The position numbers and the translations under genes are program-made. This document shows, in pieces, positions 22,973 through 59,147 of a DNA stretch of 64,000 nucleotides. Source of the DNA: Microscillaceae bacterium. Lineage in GTDB: Bacteria > Bacteroidota > Bacteroidia > Cytophagales > Microscillaceae. Every line of letters begins with the position of its first letter. Positions within the stretch are counted from its first letter, which is position 1. Location of the stretch: assembly GCA_025054775.1 (NCBI GenBank), contig JANWZA010000037.1:1-64000 (forward strand), written 5' to 3'. The notes beneath the pieces are model-generated. The model had not been told where the DNA came from and ran no database searches. It was given only the letters and a program-made list of their open reading frames with translations.

Positions 22973-23031
22973 TTTATTAAGCTCATTTATTAAGCTCAAA
23001 ACATAACTCAAAACATAACTCAAAACATAAC
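22973..23031 (+). repeat. two tandem repeats in the gyrA leader
   Basis: TTTATTAAGCTCA occurs twice in a row (22973-22985, 22986-22998). It runs into AAAACATAACTC at 22998-23009 and 23010-23021, with a partial third unit, AAAACATAAC, at 23022-23031. The array ends 8 bases before the gyrA start codon, so unit number would change the leader and the ribosome-binding region. Confidence 0.9.
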
Positions 23032-23039
23032 AAATTGCA

Positions 23040-26000
23040 ATGACAGACGCACAAAACCCATCTATCCTCCCTGTTGATATTGAAGAGGAAATGAAAACCG
23101 CCTACATAGACTATGCTATGTCGGTCATTATTTCGCGTGCCTTGCCCGATGTCCGCGACGGGCTAAAACCCGTACACCGCCGCGTACTTTATACAATGGA
23201 CGAACTCGGTTTACAACACAATAAACCCTACAAAAAATCAGCACGCATCGTAGGCGATACTCTGGGCAAATTCCACCCACATGGTGATGCCTCTGTTTAT
23301 GATACGTTAGTACGCATGGCTCAGGATTGGTCTTTGCGTTATACCTTAGTAGATGGACAAGGAAACTTCGGCTCTATGGATGGAGACTCACCAGCAAGTA
23401 TGCGCTACTGTGTGGTAGGAAATACTCTTATCAAAACGGATAAAGGATTGGTACGTATGGACTCACTTGTGCCGCATACCGCATTAAATTCTGACAATGA
23501 ATTAGATATCGAAGTTTTATCTATCCACAAACAAAAACATAAAGCTACAAAATTTTTCAATTCGGGTTATCACCTTACCTACAAACTACGCACCCAAGAA
23601 GGATTTGAAATAGAAGGAACAGCCAATCACCCTATTTTGGTATGTGAAAAAGACCACCAAGGAAAACCGCAATATGTCTGGAAATTGCTTGCCCACCTAC
23701 AACCAGGCGACAAGGTTGTCATAGACCGCACTCAAGAAACGCTCAACAAACAACCTTTTACCGAAGAGCAAAAGTATTGGGCAATTATAGCAGGTTGCCT
23801 CATTTCAGAAGGCCATGTTCAAGAAAAAAGAGTTGGTTTTAATAATGCTGACGAGCAATATTTCAAAGATTTTGTAAATGCTTACCAAAGCGTATTAGGC
23901 ACACAATTTTACATATATGAGCGTTACCTAAAATCAGGTAAAAAAATATATGAATTTGACGTTCAGAACCATACCGAATTACAAAAGTTCGCTCATAGTC
24001 CTTTATATGCCGATTTGGTAGGGCTAAAAGCAGAACAAAAACGTATTCCTACCTACATTTGGCAAACCTCTAAAACTGCCCAAAAAATATTTCTACAATA
24101 CTTGTTTGAAGGTGGCGGCAATATTTCTGCTCCCAAAGGATGCACCCCTTGCTTACAATACTGCACACAAAGTTTACAATTAGCCAAAGAAATTCAACTT
24201 TTACTTTTAGAATTTGGCGTAATTGGCAAAATTAGTGAACAAACAGAAAGAAAAGAATTTAAGGTGAGCATTAGCGGATTTTACAATATTGAAAAATTTT
24301 ATCAAAATATCAATTTTGCCACACAAAAAGCTATCAGATTACAAACCTTGATAGAGGAGGAGAGGCAATACCGCATACAACACTCGCCCAAATTTCATTT
24401 TAGCTATGATACTATTCCCTATATCTCCGAATATTTGCGAAAATACGATAAGCCTAAAAGTGCTTATTTAGCCAAAAACAATTTTGATAGGTTTGAACGC
24501 ATTGAAACCAATTACCAGCAAATTTTGCAAGCCATTAACCAAGAGCATCTGAAAGTCCTTTTTCAACATTTTGTAGCTGATAGGTATTATTTCGCTACTA
24601 CCGAATCTTGTGAATTACAACCTGAACCGAAAGTGGTTTACTCGGTAAAGGTAGAAAGCACTTGCCATTCGTTTGTGGCTAACGGCTTTATTAATCACAA
24701 TACCGAAGCTCGCTTACAACGTATTTCAGAGGAATTATTAGAAGATATAAACAAAGAAACCGTTGATTTTCAACCTAATTTTGATGACTCACTACAAGAG
24801 CCTACTGTCTTGCCTTGCAAGATTCCTAACTTACTTATTAATGGAGCATCAGGAATTGCCGTAGGTATGGCTACCAATATGCCCCCACACAATTTAAGCG
24901 AGGTAGTAGACGGAATTATTGCTTTTTTGGACAATCCTGAAATTAGCATCACTGAGTTAATGAAATACATCCCCGCCCCTGACTTCCCCACAGGAGGTAT
25001 TATCTGGGGCTACCAAGGGGTGAGAAATGCCTACGAAACAGGACGGGGGAGAATCATAATCCGTGCAGTTGCCAAAATTGAAACTACCAAGACAGGCAAA
25101 CAGCAAATCATCGTTACTGAAGTGCCTTATCAAACCAACCGCGATTTGTTAATTGAAAAAACAGCTCAACTAGTCCAAGAAAAGAAAATTGAAGGCATTT
25201 CGGATATCCGTAACGAGTCTAACAAAGAAGGTACGCGTATTGTTTACGATATCAAACGTGACTATGACGCTCAAATTGTTCTAAACCAACTCTACAAATA
25301 TACGGGTTTACAAACTTCGTTTAGCGTCAATAATGTAGCCTTAGTGAAAGGCAGACCCATGACCTTGAACCTTAAAGAATTGATACATCATTTTGTAGAA
25401 CATAGGCACGAGGTTATTTACCGCCGTACCGCCTTTGAACTCAAAGAGGCCAAAGCCCGTCAGCATATCTTGCAAGGTTATCTCATTGCCTTAGATAATC
25501 TAGATGTCGTTATTGCCCTTATTCGTGCCTCCAAAGATACTGAAACAGCTAAAACCGGCTTAATCGAGAACTTTCAACTCTCTGAAATTCAGGCAAAAGC
25601 CATTCTAGATTTGCGTTTGCAACGCCTTACCGCCTTAGAACGAGACAAAATTGTAGAGGAATACCACCGCATTACCGAACTTATTGCCAAATTAGAAGCT
25701 ATTCTAGCCGACAAAACATTGAGAACCCAAATCATTAAAGACGAATTAACTGAAATGAAACAGCGTTACGGGGATAAGCGACGTACACAAATTGATTATA
25801 ACGGTAGCGAAGAGGACTTTAGCATTGAGGAAATAATAGAAGAGGAGAGCGTAGTAGTTACTATTTCGCATGAAGGGTTTATCAAACGTACCTCTCTTAC
25901 AGAATATCGTAAGCAAGGACGCGGGGGAGTAGGTTCGCGCAGTGTGAAAGCCAGCGATAATGACTTTACAGAGCATCTATTTGTAACCTCCTCGCACGCT

Positions 26001-26894
26001 TACTTGCTCTTCTTTACTAACTACGGCAAAGTTTATTGGAAAAAAGCCTACGAAATTCAAGAAGCCTCTAAAACTGCCAAAGGTACGCACATCCGCAACC
26101 TGATTCAACTAGAAAAAGACGAAAAAGTACAAGCCGTGATAGATGTCCGTAACCTCAATGATACCGATTTCGTGCAAAACCATTACCTTGTAATGTGTAC
26201 TGAAAAAGGCATTATCAAAAAGACTGAATTAGAGGCTTTCTCACGACCACGCGCCAACGGAATTGTTGCCATCTCTATTGACGAAAACGATAAACTACTC
26301 GACGTACAACTCACTAATGGTAATAATCATATCATTTTAGCTTCACGATTAGGACGTGCCGTCCATTTCCACGAAGAACAGGTACGACCTATGGGGCGTA
26401 CAGCCGCAGGCGTGAAAGGCATCACCCTAGCCGAAGATGAGGATGCTAACGACCGAGTAGTAGGCATGGTGTGCGTAAGCCATGAGAACTCCACACTTTT
26501 GGTAGTTTCTGAAAAAGGCTATGGCAAGCGTACTGATTTAGGAGATTATCGCGTTACTAACCGAGGAGCAAAAGGTGTTACTACTTTGAAAATGACCGAG
26601 AAAACAGGTTACGTAGTCGCTATTAAAGAAGTCCAAGACTCTGATGACTTGATGATTATCAACAAAACAGGCATGCTAATTCGTATCCCTGTTAATCAAT
26701 TACGTGTAATGGGTAGAGCTACGCAAGGTGTTAAACTTATTCGTTTGCAAGACGAAGACGATGTAATTGTTTCAGTAGCCAAAGTAAAACACGAAGCTAA
26801 TGACGAAGAAGAGCAAATTAGTAATCAATCAGTTATAGAGCAAGAGAATAACCAAAATCATTCGCTCCCTTTAAGTAAGGGAAAGGCAGAATAA
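23040..26894 (+). CDS. gyrA: DNA gyrase subunit A precursor containing an in-frame intein
   Basis: A 1284-residue precursor; removing residues 124-554 leaves a normal 853-residue GyrA. The N-extein (1-123) carries [20 protein letters not shown], the quinolone-region [20 protein letters not shown], and the DNA-cleaving tyrosine at its last residue, SMRY (Tyr123). The C-extein starts TEARLQRIS and carries the tower/coiled-coil region and six-bladed C-terminal beta-pinwheel, including the GyrA box in [10 protein letters not shown]. The enzyme introduces negative supercoils with GyrB and is essential, so the intein must splice. The acidic C-terminal tail is normal for Bacteroidota. The gene is transcribed alone, from a promoter at 22893-22924, with tandem repeats in its leader. 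Confidence 0.98.
23409..24701 (+). mobile_element. GyrA intein with LAGLIDADG-type homing endonuclease region
   Basis: 431 residues (precursor 124-554) inserted directly after catalytic Tyr123, the same SMRY/TEAR site used by mycobacterial GyrA inteins. Splicing motifs are complete: Cys124 first residue ([20 protein letters not shown], block A), GTANHPIL with Thr194 and His197 (block B), and [17 protein letters not shown] ending in His553-Asn554 (blocks F and G) before Thr555. Between them lies a two-motif homing endonuclease: [12 protein letters not shown] (acidic Glu257) and [11 protein letters not shown], where Gly359 occupies the position of the second catalytic acid. Splicing should work; DNA cleavage is doubtful. 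Base composition looks like the host gene's surroundings. Confidence 0.95.
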
Positions 26895-55748: not shown

Positions 55749-58700
55749 TTATTCTATTACCACTAGTTTACTACTTACTACGCTACTTTTTTTATCTTGT
55801 AAAGACTTGACTATCAGCCTATACATGTACACACCTTTACCCACGCGGTTGCCTCTATTGTCTAATCCGTTCCATTCGGCACGTAAGGGGGAGTGGCTGT
55901 CAGCAGGTGAGAATTCGGTTTTGAGTGTTTGTATCAAAGCCCCTTGGCTATTATAAATTTCTACAAACATTTCTAGCTCATCGCCCTCGCGGTTGTGTTC
56001 TACGCTAAAAGTGGTGCTTTGCGTCATGGGATTGGGGTAGTTCAATACATTTTTGAGGGCAACTACGGCATCAGTTTCTACAAAGAAGTTAATCGTTTCA
56101 ATGGCTTCATTGTTGAAGGTGTCCCAAGCACGCACTACAAAGAAATTTTTACCTTTGGGTAAATCAAAAAGTGGAAAATAAATTGAACCACCTTGGTAGG
56201 TATCTTTATTAGCTTTGTAATAGTTGTTTAGGAGATAGGTATTTTCAGCTTTTGCGTTGAGTGTGGCAGTGATATTTTGCCCAATATTCGTGTTTGTAAG
56301 GCTAATGCCACTTTCATCTTGAAGTTTTACAATTAAAGTAGTGTTTTTAGGCACGGTGCCACCCTCTTTGAATTGCTCGTTTTCCATAAAAAGTTGTATT
56401 TGTGGGGGGGTACGGTCTTGGGCAAGATTAGCTTGGGGATTTGTGCCTCCTATTACAAAGTCCAAGTTATAGCCTGCTGCATCAGTGGTTCGGGCATCAT
56501 TTACGGCATAAAAGCTAAATTTTGCTTTGCCAAATTGATAGTCAATATTTTTAGGGATAGGAAAGGTGAATTCAAATACACCATTTCGCACTGAAACTTC
56601 TCCTCTGAAAATCAAGCTATTACGAACTTCATAGCTCATAACAGGGGCTTTTTGTCCAAGGGTTTTTACTTCTTGTGGCTTGTCAAAAATGGTTACACTC
56701 AATTTGCCATTCCAAGTAAGAAGTTGATTTTGTTGGTTACGAACTTCCCCGCGTACTGTTACTTTGCTTAATGCTTTGAGCGTATCTGTGGGTAAATGGA
56801 TAGGTTTGTCGTTCAAGTGTGTAATTACTATTTGCTCTTTGGGATATGCTAACCGCATGGAAGGGTCGCCAAGTAAGGAAAAGTTGCGGTTTACAGGTCC
56901 GTTCAGACTACCGTTTTTCGTTTTTCGCATTATTTGCCCCAAACGTGGCATCTCTCCGTTAATTGGTTCAAATACATAACGGTAGAAGGCTTGATTAAGC
57001 AAAAAATTAGTACTTGAAAACACAGGACGGGTAGTGGTAATGAGGGCAATCCCTCCACCTCTTGGATTGAGCAAGACTTTTTCACCTCCTGAAACCACGC
57101 GCGGGTTGTCATATTTTCCAAACTCACAAGTAGCCGTAACAAACAAAGGCATATTGTCTAAATTTTTCCAACTTTCAATCATGCTATGGTCAAGGATTTT
57201 CTCTTCCGTCCAGCCTACTTCACCGCCGTGTCCTGTAAAGTTAATAATTAAGGCTCCGCGTTGTACTTCGCGATTGAGGGCATCACGCACTTCAGGCGAT
57301 AGGGCCCCTGTGGGTGTGGAAATTCGTGGAAAAGCATCAATATAAAATTTTTCTATATTCCAATTCAAATGATTTTGTGCTACATATTGTGCAAGTTGGT
57401 CGGCATCATATTGATGTATGTTTGCGTCGCCATCATCGGCAAAGAAGCTAATTCGGTTTTTCCAATCGTGCAAAGATTTGCTGTTGGTCGCATAGCTTAT
57501 CAACTTATTTACTACTGCTGTTGCCTCGCGCAGAGTACGAACAGGCAGCCTACCAATACCGATTTCTAGGGTGTGGTCGCCGCTAAAAGTTTCTGCCCAT
57601 GTGCCTTCATTATCTTCTAGAAAGCCAAAATAATCGTCAGAGGAGTAGCTAAAAATAGGATGTAAGGACTCATAGGACTCGTACACGGGTACAAGATTAT
57701 TGTTATTAGGAATACGTTTTTTATAATCAAAGGAGGCGGCACCAAAGAGCAAAAGGTAGCGTAATTCATTTGGATTGCGTTTGTATAACATTCGCACAAA
57801 GTCGCGAATAGCCGAAATATCTTGTCTTCCTGAGGCAAATTCGTTGTAAATTTGTTCGGTAGTAACTACGTGTACGCTCAAGTTATCATTAGTACGTCTA
57901 AAATTAGCTAGACGGTTGGCTTCTGAAAGGAAGCGAGGGTGCGTAACAATCACTAAATTTGGTGTAGAGAGGGCATGTAAATTTTGGTTAGGAATAGCTT
58001 GTATGCGTACAGGAGAGCGAAAATCTTGTCTACGGAACACAATAAATTCGCGCAAAGTATTAGTTTGGGTGCTAAAAATAGCTTGCGAACCATTAAGTAT
58101 AAATTGCTGATTAGCAGGTTGTTGGGGATTGGTAATATCCCAAATGGAAATATTATTGGGTACATTATCAATTACAAATTGACTAATACTTTGCGAAGTG
58201 CTGGCAATACTTCTAAATTGAGTTTGGTTGCCATATAGTTGTAATCTACGCAAATAGTTAATTCGCAGGAAGTTCAGGTGCCCTATGCCTGAGGCGCCGT
58301 TTCGGTTTAAGGTAAGACTAATTTGTAGGTTAGCGTTTCCGTCGCTATTAAAGTTAAAAGTATTAGTTACAAGTGTACCTTTGGCAGCATAGGTTTCAGG
58401 AAAGATGAGAGCTACGTTGTGTTGCCCTATTTCTTGCCCATTAGCACGTACAGAGAAGGTAACATCTCTAAAAAAACGCCCTAATACTGATGAGGTAAGC
58501 CTTACCATAGAATTAGGCACAATGCCCGTGACATTGAAATTCACAGTTTGCGAAGTATTAGCATCAAATACTTCCCCGAACCATTCGCGTCCAGAGTTGA
58601 GGATATTGTTGTCATTGCGTTCATGAAACTGGAAATCGTTATAGGTATCAATAGTTTGGGTAGCTCCTGAAAGGTTAGGTTGGGTCCCTATGCGAAGCCC

Positions 58701-59147
58701 TGCACGATTATCAACGCTCAGAAAGTAGAATGTAGTATCGCTATATACGTTAATTTCATGCTCAAAGAGCTGTTGAGAAGAATTGTACGAAATTTTATGT
58801 GGACTTTGGGCATAAAACAAAATAAAATCTTGACTATCAAATTTACCATCTTGTTCACCTTCTACCCAAATTGCATTTTCAGGCAGGTCGTCATAACGGA
58901 AGGCACTATTAGCTTGCGGAAGTGAGCCGCCTCCATAACCCCAAAGATGTATATTTTGCGGATTGATACTCTCTAGGGGAATTCCTGCTCGTTTAAGTGT
59001 TTCAAAATCAAGACGATAGATACCACTCTCTAATACAGCAATTTTATAGAAATTCCCCTCTGCAAGCACTGAATTAGCGGCATATTGTGCTTTTGCTATT
59101 TGGCATAGAACTAAATTTAGTGAAATTAAAAGTATTAAATGCTTCAT
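55749..59147 (-). CDS. porU: type IX secretion system sortase PorU
   Basis: An 1132-residue outer-membrane-associated gingipain-like (C25) cysteine protease that removes C-terminal sorting domains and attaches cargo to anionic lipopolysaccharide. A signal peptide (LILLISLNLVLCQIAKAQ) is present. The C25 catalytic pair is His640 in NFTGHGGEVGW and Cys674 in FVTATCEFGKYD. The C-terminal 100 residues have a FlgD-like/sorting fold (NYPNPMTQSTTFSVEHNR ... GKGVYMYRLIV), usual for PorU. A TATCTTTG -7 element lies upstream at 59364-59357. Its substrates in this window include the protein whose tail is at 1-590. Confidence 0.95.
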   Translation of the reverse strand: MKHLILLISLNLVLCQIAKAQYAANSVLAEGNFYKIAVLESGIYRLDFETLKRAGIPLESINPQNIHLWGYGGGSLPQANSAFRYDDLPENAIWVEGEQDGKFDSQDFILFYAQSPHKISYNSSQQLFEHEINVYSDTTFYFLSVDNRAGLRIGTQPNLSGATQTIDTYNDFQFHERNDNNILNSGREWFGEVFDANTSQTVNFNVTGIVPNSMVRLTSSVLGRFFRDVTFSVRANGQEIGQHNVALIFPETYAAKGTLVTNTFNFNSDGNANLQISLTLNRNGASGIGHLNFLRINYLRRLQLYGNQTQFRSIASTSQSISQFVIDNVPNNISIWDITNPQQPANQQFILNGSQAIFSTQTNTLREFIVFRRQDFRSPVRIQAIPNQNLHALSTPNLVIVTHPRFLSEANRLANFRRTNDNLSVHVVTTEQIYNEFASGRQDISAIRDFVRMLYKRNPNELRYLLLFGAASFDYKKRIPNNNNLVPVYESYESLHPIFSYSSDDYFGFLEDNEGTWAETFSGDHTLEIGIGRLPVRTLREATAVVNKLISYATNSKSLHDWKNRISFFADDGDANIHQYDADQLAQYVAQNHLNWNIEKFYIDAFPRISTPTGALSPEVRDALNREVQRGALIINFTGHGGEVGWTEEKILDHSMIESWKNLDNMPLFVTATCEFGKYDNPRVVSGGEKVLLNPRGGGIALITTTRPVFSSTNFLLNQAFYRYVFEPINGEMPRLGQIMRKTKNGSLNGPVNRNFSLLGDPSMRLAYPKEQIVITHLNDKPIHLPTDTLKALSKVTVRGEVRNQQNQLLTWNGKLSVTIFDKPQEVKTLGQKAPVMSYEVRNSLIFRGEVSVRNGVFEFTFPIPKNIDYQFGKAKFSFYAVNDARTTDAAGYNLDFVIGGTNPQANLAQDRTPPQIQLFMENEQFKEGGTVPKNTTLIVKLQDESGISLTNTNIGQNITATLNAKAENTYLLNNYYKANKDTYQGGSIYFPLFDLPKGKNFFVVRAWDTFNNEAIETINFFVETDAVVALKNVLNYPNPMTQSTTFSVEHNREGDELEMFVEIYNSQGALIQTLKTEFSPADSHSPLRAEWNGLDNRGNRVGKGVYMYRLIVKSLQDKKSSVVSSKLVVIE

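Follow-up and report, generated by a model that had tools for sequence, protein, structure and literature searches.

The stretch of DNA analysed here, referred to as the window, comprises 64,000 nucleotides of a contig (JANWZA010000037.1) from a Microscillaceae bacterium. It contains a gyrA gene on the forward strand (23040..26894) as a single open frame, which encodes a precursor of 1284 residues and matches the gyrA model TIGR01063 with 1153.4 bits (cut-off 877). An intein of 431 residues, precursor residues 124-554, occupies positions 23409..24701 (+) of this frame. It separates the N-extein (23040..23408, +), consisting of GyrA residues 1-123, from the C-extein (24702..26894, +), which begins with Thr+1 in the sequence TEARLQ and comprises the remaining GyrA and the stop codon. 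The last residue of the N-extein is the predicted catalytic tyrosine, Tyr123, presumably equivalent in role to Tyr122 of E. coli GyrA. An earlier note on this DNA had placed an insert that starts with Cys and ends with His-Asn before Thr at precursor residues 124-554, a reading that proved exact to the base; taking these residues out joins SMRY to TEAR and leaves a GyrA of 853 residues, just as that note had proposed. The G+C content is 0.472 in the N-extein, 0.363 in the intein and 0.413 in the C-extein, compared with 0.373 for the window; within gyrA (23040-26891) the short N-extein deviates more than the intein does. Directly before the gyrA start codon, at 22995-23031, CTCAAAACATAAC is present in three identical copies at intervals of 12 bases. 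Elsewhere in the window, a protein of 1132 residues with a Peptidase_C25 domain is encoded on the reverse strand (55749-59147).

We refer to the position between the catalytic tyrosine and TEAR as site a. Residue counts at this site and the intein tree described below are based on the same 85 aligned inteins, the window intein included, after removal of two rows cut by contig ends (L107 and L111), three from another host protein (L166-L168) and one partial row (L165), in which the C-side junction HN/TE is nonetheless present. The splicing (Hint) domain of the window intein is formed by two separate parts. The N-terminal part, intein residues 1-112 (23409..23744, +), contains Cys1 (23409-23411), a cysteine in 85/85 inteins, and block B with the sequence Thr71-Ala-Asn-His74 (TANH; 23619..23630), which follows the TxxH pattern; His74 is found in 85/85, and at position 71, 50 inteins have Ser and 35 have Thr. 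The C-terminal part, residues 385-431 (24561..24701, +), includes block F (CHSFVANG), whose cysteine, Cys419 (24663..24665), is shared by 81/85, and closes with FINHN before the threonine, both residues of block G, His430-Asn431 (24696-24701), being present in 85/85. A further cysteine in this part, Cys401 (24609..24611), occurs in 14/14 rows of a clade from Bacteroidota, Campylobacterota and Contendobacter and in 0/71 other rows. The cysteine nucleophile, the TxxH of block B, His-Asn followed by Thr, and a Hint fold with PF14890 above its cut-off identify a class 1 intein, and its position together with its homology to GyrA inteins inserted there identifies it as the site-a allele.

Family searches and structure prediction agree with this assignment. 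On the intein itself, Pfam reports Intein_splicing with 52.7 bits (cut-off 35.8) and LAGLIDADG_3 (PF14528) with 60.1 bits in two stretches (cut-off 22.5), and NCBIfam reports TIGR01445 intein_Nterm with 36.3 bits (cut-off 24.5). TIGR01443 intein_Cterm stays below its cut-off of 15.6, with 13.4 bits on the intein and 13.2 on the precursor. The model for intein-containing DNA gyrase subunit A, NF038098, aligns to the precursor from model position 2 to 1230 of 1232; it scores 319.8 bits with the intein and 1318.6 with the precursor, short of the cut-off of 1850 for the whole protein. An AlphaFold2 model of the intein, computed from a 44-row alignment, has a mean pLDDT of 95.0 and a pTM of 0.93. 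Over intein residues 1-431 it matches structures of inteins that carry an endonuclease, TliVMA (7qsu; Z 31.0, rmsd 3.9, 326 aligned residues) and 7qss (Z 29.9, rmsd 4.1, 381 aligned), and its splicing part matches the Mycobacterium xenopi (Mxe) GyrA intein (Z 24.7, rmsd 1.9, 179 aligned). PADLOC and PHROGs searches returned homing-endonuclease, terminase or unknown families only. All 234 records from a plasmid search lie below 60% identity, and the 20 listed among them, with 23-24%, belong to RecA or to unnamed LAGLIDADG proteins.

What is the state of the endonuclease? The earlier note recognized blocks A, B, F and G, and the splicing residues are indeed complete, but it missed the LAGLIDADG homing-endonuclease domain that lies between them, at approximately intein residues 116-376 (23754..24536, +), as defined by PF14528 and the predicted fold. 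Both LAGLIDADG motifs and the fold of an active enzyme are present; the acid that should end each motif is found in the first only. Glu134 of the first motif (CLISEG; 23808..23810) is kept, a Glu in 81/85 inteins that stands opposite the Glu of PI-PkoII. In the second motif (LFEGGGN), Gly236 (24114..24116) is found where the catalytic Asp is expected; Asp is present in 77/85 and stands opposite the Asp of the GDG of PI-PkoII, and Gly is found in 4/85 rows, the window intein among them. With eight shorter or phage and viral rows excluded, Asp236Gly is the window's sole change at the 28 endonuclease columns with a conservation of 90% or more in the other 76 full-length rows; 74 of the 77 full-length rows have 0 to 3 changes at such columns. 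Ten further full-length inteins of its clade (Contendobacter excluded) agree completely at 63 columns; there the window has three changes, Thr147Ala, Asp236Gly and Ser238Asn, and these ten have 0 to 6 changes at 60-66 columns each. A test for general decay on these counts found none in the window endonuclease, with 3/63 clade-invariant and 1/28 broadly conserved columns changed.

Because the second catalytic acid is replaced by Gly236, the only change at the 28 conserved columns, the window endonuclease is probably inactive. Judging from the alignment, it most likely lost cutting by this single replacement, either recently or without wider decay; little decay beyond Gly236 would therefore point to a recent loss or to a domain that is still selected for something. 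Excerpts of PMC8966425 describe the PhoVMA intein as having an inactive endonuclease with the block C and E acids missing, and in excerpts of PMC10899782 the single catalytic-acid mutant E22Q of I-OnuI serves as an inactive control. Other states of the domain occur at site a. The full-length intein of Contendobacter (L092) has 12/29 conserved endonuclease columns changed and both acids gone, with an intact splicing part (0/32 conserved columns changed). Inteins of about 306 residues in genomes G011 (L006:3601-4518) and G002 (L007:2774-3694) have the endonuclease largely deleted and the splicing residues kept.

The host genome (G000) is a draft of 3.01 Mb in 65 contigs, 99% complete, with the same family code as genome G004. 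Searching it with the precursor gave three matches, including this gyrA and a 682-residue frame at 30% identity; among the matches seen, the third ranking below those listed, the intein-bearing copy is the only full gyrA. A search of this genome with intein_Nterm found the gyrA intein and no other place at E values up to 0.1. A weak intein match elsewhere in it (E 0.0034) lies in an apparent RND-type transporter and was taken as chance. The earlier note held that the gyrase depends on protein splicing; that claim now has the single full gyrA match behind it, and we infer that gyrase would have to be supplied through splicing, since no other full GyrA was found in the genome. A working gyrase in this organism would then imply that the intein splices.

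With the precursor searched in 57 relatives and the intein in 390 genomes, the site-a intein was found in 8/390 genomes of the order, among them 6/15 genomes with the window's own family code. It is full length in G000, G004, G014, G005, G038 and G118, with G002 and G011 carrying the shortened forms. The remaining eight intein-matching genomes of the order sample have no match in gyrA, and we read these as seven DnaB inteins and one chance match in a transporter (G373). In the phylum sample, 34/395 genomes match the intein, and none of the best loci checked in 29/33 others lies in gyrA; G425, G448, G469 and G669, as well as further matches of some multi-match genomes, came without a locus and fall outside this check. 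Among the other matches of the two samples, 40 loci were checked, and none encodes GyrA. Presence and absence of the site-a intein require six changes on the GyrA tree over 30 rows of the order (8 with, 22 without). A single genus code includes a genome with the site-a intein (G014), one in which the site is empty (G013; GyrA 96.5% identical to that of G014) and one with an intein only at a second site described below (G007; 94.9%). For the first two of these, successive 60-base segments upstream of the insertion site, moving away from it, have 52, 55, 55, 56, 59 and 59 matches, a gradient that might be compatible with co-conversion in this one pair; downstream, the segments have 42 to 59 of 60 matches without a gradient.

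The site-a intein also extends far beyond this order. A scan of an 84,980-species collection with an alignment of eight inteins confirmed 134 loci, the best 80 of which were kept; the window intein alone confirmed nothing in the same collection. The junction RY/C...HN/TE is present in 78 of these best 80 of 134 loci, and the other two end at contig ends. Bacterial hosts among the best 80 of 134 include Campylobacterota groups, Aquificota, Contendobacter, Omnitrophota, Armatimonadetes and Patescibacteria, and archaeal hosts include Woesearchaeota, Nanoarchaeota, Altiarchaeales, Archaeoglobaceae and Thermoplasmatota. No mycobacterium is among the titles listed for the best 80 of 134, and the patterns used for the search would not have picked up the Mxe sequence. 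One woesearchaeotal locus (L136) has a stop codon inside the intein frame, and this copy may be broken or differently coded. Viral contigs have the full junction in 2/6 cases and its C-side only in a third, and the full RY/C...HN/TE junction is found in the gyrase of Staphylococcus phage Machias. Published excerpts likewise mention 23 intein-bearing GyrA sequences that were excluded from a data set of archaeal gyrases (PMC9348778) and a gyrA intein in staphylococcal jumbo phages (PMC10638138). The literature searched, which covered few subscription papers and is therefore weak evidence on absence, contains no mention of a GyrA intein in Bacteroidota or of a second GyrA intein site. Judged by sequence, the site-a allele is spread over many bacterial and archaeal phyla and phages, and mycobacteria are not its reference point. 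The earlier note had described the site as reached in a distant phylum; the Bacteroidota intein is real, and the description understates how widely the allele is distributed.

That note had also proposed a search of intein collections and an intein tree. The closest sequence match in the PDB is the Mxe GyrA intein (1am2, E 1.5e-25), and the 85-row tree joins the eight Bacteroidota inteins, the window's included, with five from Campylobacterota and one from the gammaproteobacterial Contendobacter in a single clade (100/100). Inside this clade, the Campylobacterota rows join the row of Prado074 (G004) with support of 93/78; they are the closest relatives found outside Bacteroidota. Topology tests left three alternative arrangements unrejected, namely one Bacteroidota intein clade (p-AU 0.214), the six own-family inteins as one clade (p-AU 0.123), and a grouping of Bacteroidota with Campylobacterota that leaves Contendobacter outside (p-AU 0.065). 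A GyrA tree of 44 rows, from which L027 and relatives without a locus were dropped, was built by a quick method with few rows from outside the order, and long branches and composition raised warnings; it groups all 30 rows from the order of the window together (100) and places Campylobacterota and Contendobacter among other phyla (93). Between the window and Campylobacterota, inteins are 47.8-51.3% and GyrA proteins 47.3-50.1% identical; within the window's own family the corresponding values are 48.0-60.0% and 68.2-71.5%. Because the inteins of three phyla cluster while their GyrA proteins do not, and because intein identities are alike across phyla and within the family while GyrA identities are not, the intein most likely crossed between phyla, in either direction.

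Some gyrA genes contain an intein at another position, here called site b, where VGD/E precedes an insert of the form C...N that is followed by C[LI]GK[YF]HPHG; the window gyrA has no intein there. In G004 (L005:680-1156), the second gyrA intein is a mini-intein of 159 residues between VGD and CLGKYHPHG, and G007, likewise of the Microscillaceae group, has a related mini-intein of 174 residues (L015:3778-4299) at site b and none at site a. Searching the order with the site-b mini-intein gave matches in 9/380 genomes; among eight loci, GyrA is the host only in these two genomes, G190 and the second match of G116 having come without a locus. Full-size relatives of 436-442 residues are present at site b in a Campylobacterales MAG (L090) and in Aquificota (L097, L100, L102 and L105), in all of which site a is occupied too; the site-b copy of L090 ends in Leu-Asn rather than His-Asn. 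Excerpts of PMC10643990 describe phage introns with inactive endonucleases that are carried by active neighbours and ask whether the same holds for multi-intein genes. Inteins in other hosts were also encountered. Eight apparent DnaB genes (L040-L044, L046, L051 and L052) carry a pair of inteins, the first following the Walker A region and the second preceding SIEQDADM; G004 has an intein in an apparent ribonucleotide reductase (L050), and genome G706 of the phylum sample has one in an apparent FtsH, directly after the Walker A sequence GTGK (L054).

We propose, with a probability of roughly 0.9, that the insert is a class 1 GyrA site-a intein that is spliced out of the only full GyrA found in the genome and that carries a probably dead endonuclease. 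The precursor of 1284 residues should be inactive as a gyrase because 431 residues part the catalytic tyrosine from the rest of the protein. The splicing steps that we envisage for this intein follow standard class 1 chemistry. After translation, Cys1 would attack the Tyr-Cys bond, and the N-extein would then be transferred to Thr+1. Cyclization of Asn431, assisted by His430, would release the intein, and SMRY would be ligated to TEAR to give the 853-residue GyrA. The allele would have spread by homing, through a LAGLIDADG endonuclease that cuts intein-less gyrA. With the endonuclease of the window now probably inactive, the intein would be retained because its removal by mutation must be exact.

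Not every part of this reading is equally free of competitors. That the insertion is an assembly artefact, or stays in the mature GyrA, is practically excluded, and nothing was found in favour of either: an insert of the same family sits at the same codon boundary in seven other genomes of the order and the same junction in 78/80 loci, the splicing residues are complete, and the frame is open throughout. Chance is in practice excluded too, as is the assembly error that the earlier note had named as a way for its reading to fail. Purely vertical descent, in which an ancestor among the Bacteroidota had the intein, many lineages lost it and no phylum passed it to another, draws on the unrejected Bacteroidota intein clade (p-AU 0.214); we consider it very improbable given that Campylobacterota and Contendobacter inteins share one clade with the Bacteroidota inteins (100/100) while their GyrA proteins group with other phyla (93, quick tree), and that intein identity, unlike GyrA identity, is about the same across phyla as within the family. 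It is conceivable that the intein acts as a conditional switch, in which two cysteines close to the splicing centre, Cys401 and Cys419, sense redox state or stress and the gyrase supply follows. Conditional splicing has a precedent in the mycobacterial DnaB intein and zinc, according to excerpts of PMC7360933, and Cys401 marks the whole 14-row clade and none of the 71 other rows, with Cys419 in 81/85; a clade-specific cysteine can, however, be neutral, and other site-a inteins do without Cys401, so we hold such a switch to be improbable.

The endonuclease could also still work, by nicking or through a replacement acid, and homing could continue. The intact Glu134 of the first motif and the sole difference of Asp236Gly at 28 strongly conserved columns speak for this, and the LFEGGG form recurs elsewhere in the tree, in inteins of Altarchaeum (L133) and Paceibacter (L152) whose first-motif acid is intact. 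We nevertheless regard continued activity as unlikely. Blocks C and E hold the acidic catalytic residues, the lost Asp among them (excerpts of PMC8966425). A single base suffices to turn Asp into Gly, so three occurrences require no selection. Moreover, L133 and L152, with 3/28 and 5/30 conserved columns changed, are less well kept than the window intein, which fits decay. A bolder interpretation of the same residues would be that loss of the Asp is a repeated, selected taming, by which the endonuclease has become a nickase or a DNA-binding part that aids persistence or spread while the host is spared double-strand breaks in gyrA. We view this as a long shot; L133 and L152 have another 2 and 4 conserved endonuclease columns changed, which counts against it.

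What is the relevance of a class 1 intein with a probably dead endonuclease at this site? With the Microscillaceae group and Raineya, the analysis extends the host range of a GyrA intein known across bacteria, archaea and phages. Within one order, and at one gyrase site, it brings together the empty site, the full-length intein, an intein with one catalytic residue changed, and inteins from which most of the endonuclease has been deleted. Gain, decay and loss could be measured on a series of this kind.

Compared with known systems, the window intein is an ordinary member of the GyrA site-a intein family. Its nearest counterparts outside Bacteroidota, the Campylobacterota inteins from Sulfurovum, Campylobacteraceae and Campylobacterales (L087-L091), belong to the same clade and have Cys401 in common with it, but retain both endonuclease acids. 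The statement of the earlier note that mycobacterial GyrA inteins use this same site is corroborated by the M. leprae gyrA intein-deletion primers in excerpts of PMC6658535, whose translation by hand gives the flanks PAAMRY and TEARLT and thus the insertion point of the window intein, MRY/TEAR. The Mxe GyrA intein (PDB 1am2, 4oz6) has a homologous splicing domain, with 34% identity over the shared part as opposed to 47.8-51.3% for Campylobacterota. Its 199 residues include nothing that matches residues 114-380 of the window intein, and it is therefore without an endonuclease, whereas the window intein has one that has lost an acid. The GyrA intein of the jumbo phage Machias, hosted by a phage gyrase, shares the junction and is homologous over its length at 25% identity; it has 373 residues, a Gln in place of the first-motif acid, and Asp rather than Cys in block F. 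GyrA inteins of the phages PALS_2, S6, DC4 and PB50 were matched by search as well, the junction having been checked in Machias alone. More distant are PhoVMA, with a degenerate endonuclease, and TliVMA, with an active one, which reside in an archaeal V-ATPase and are 20-21% identical to the window intein. Both have the same two-domain build, and PhoVMA, as described in excerpts of PMC8966425, provides a precedent for an intein that has lost catalytic acids of its endonuclease.
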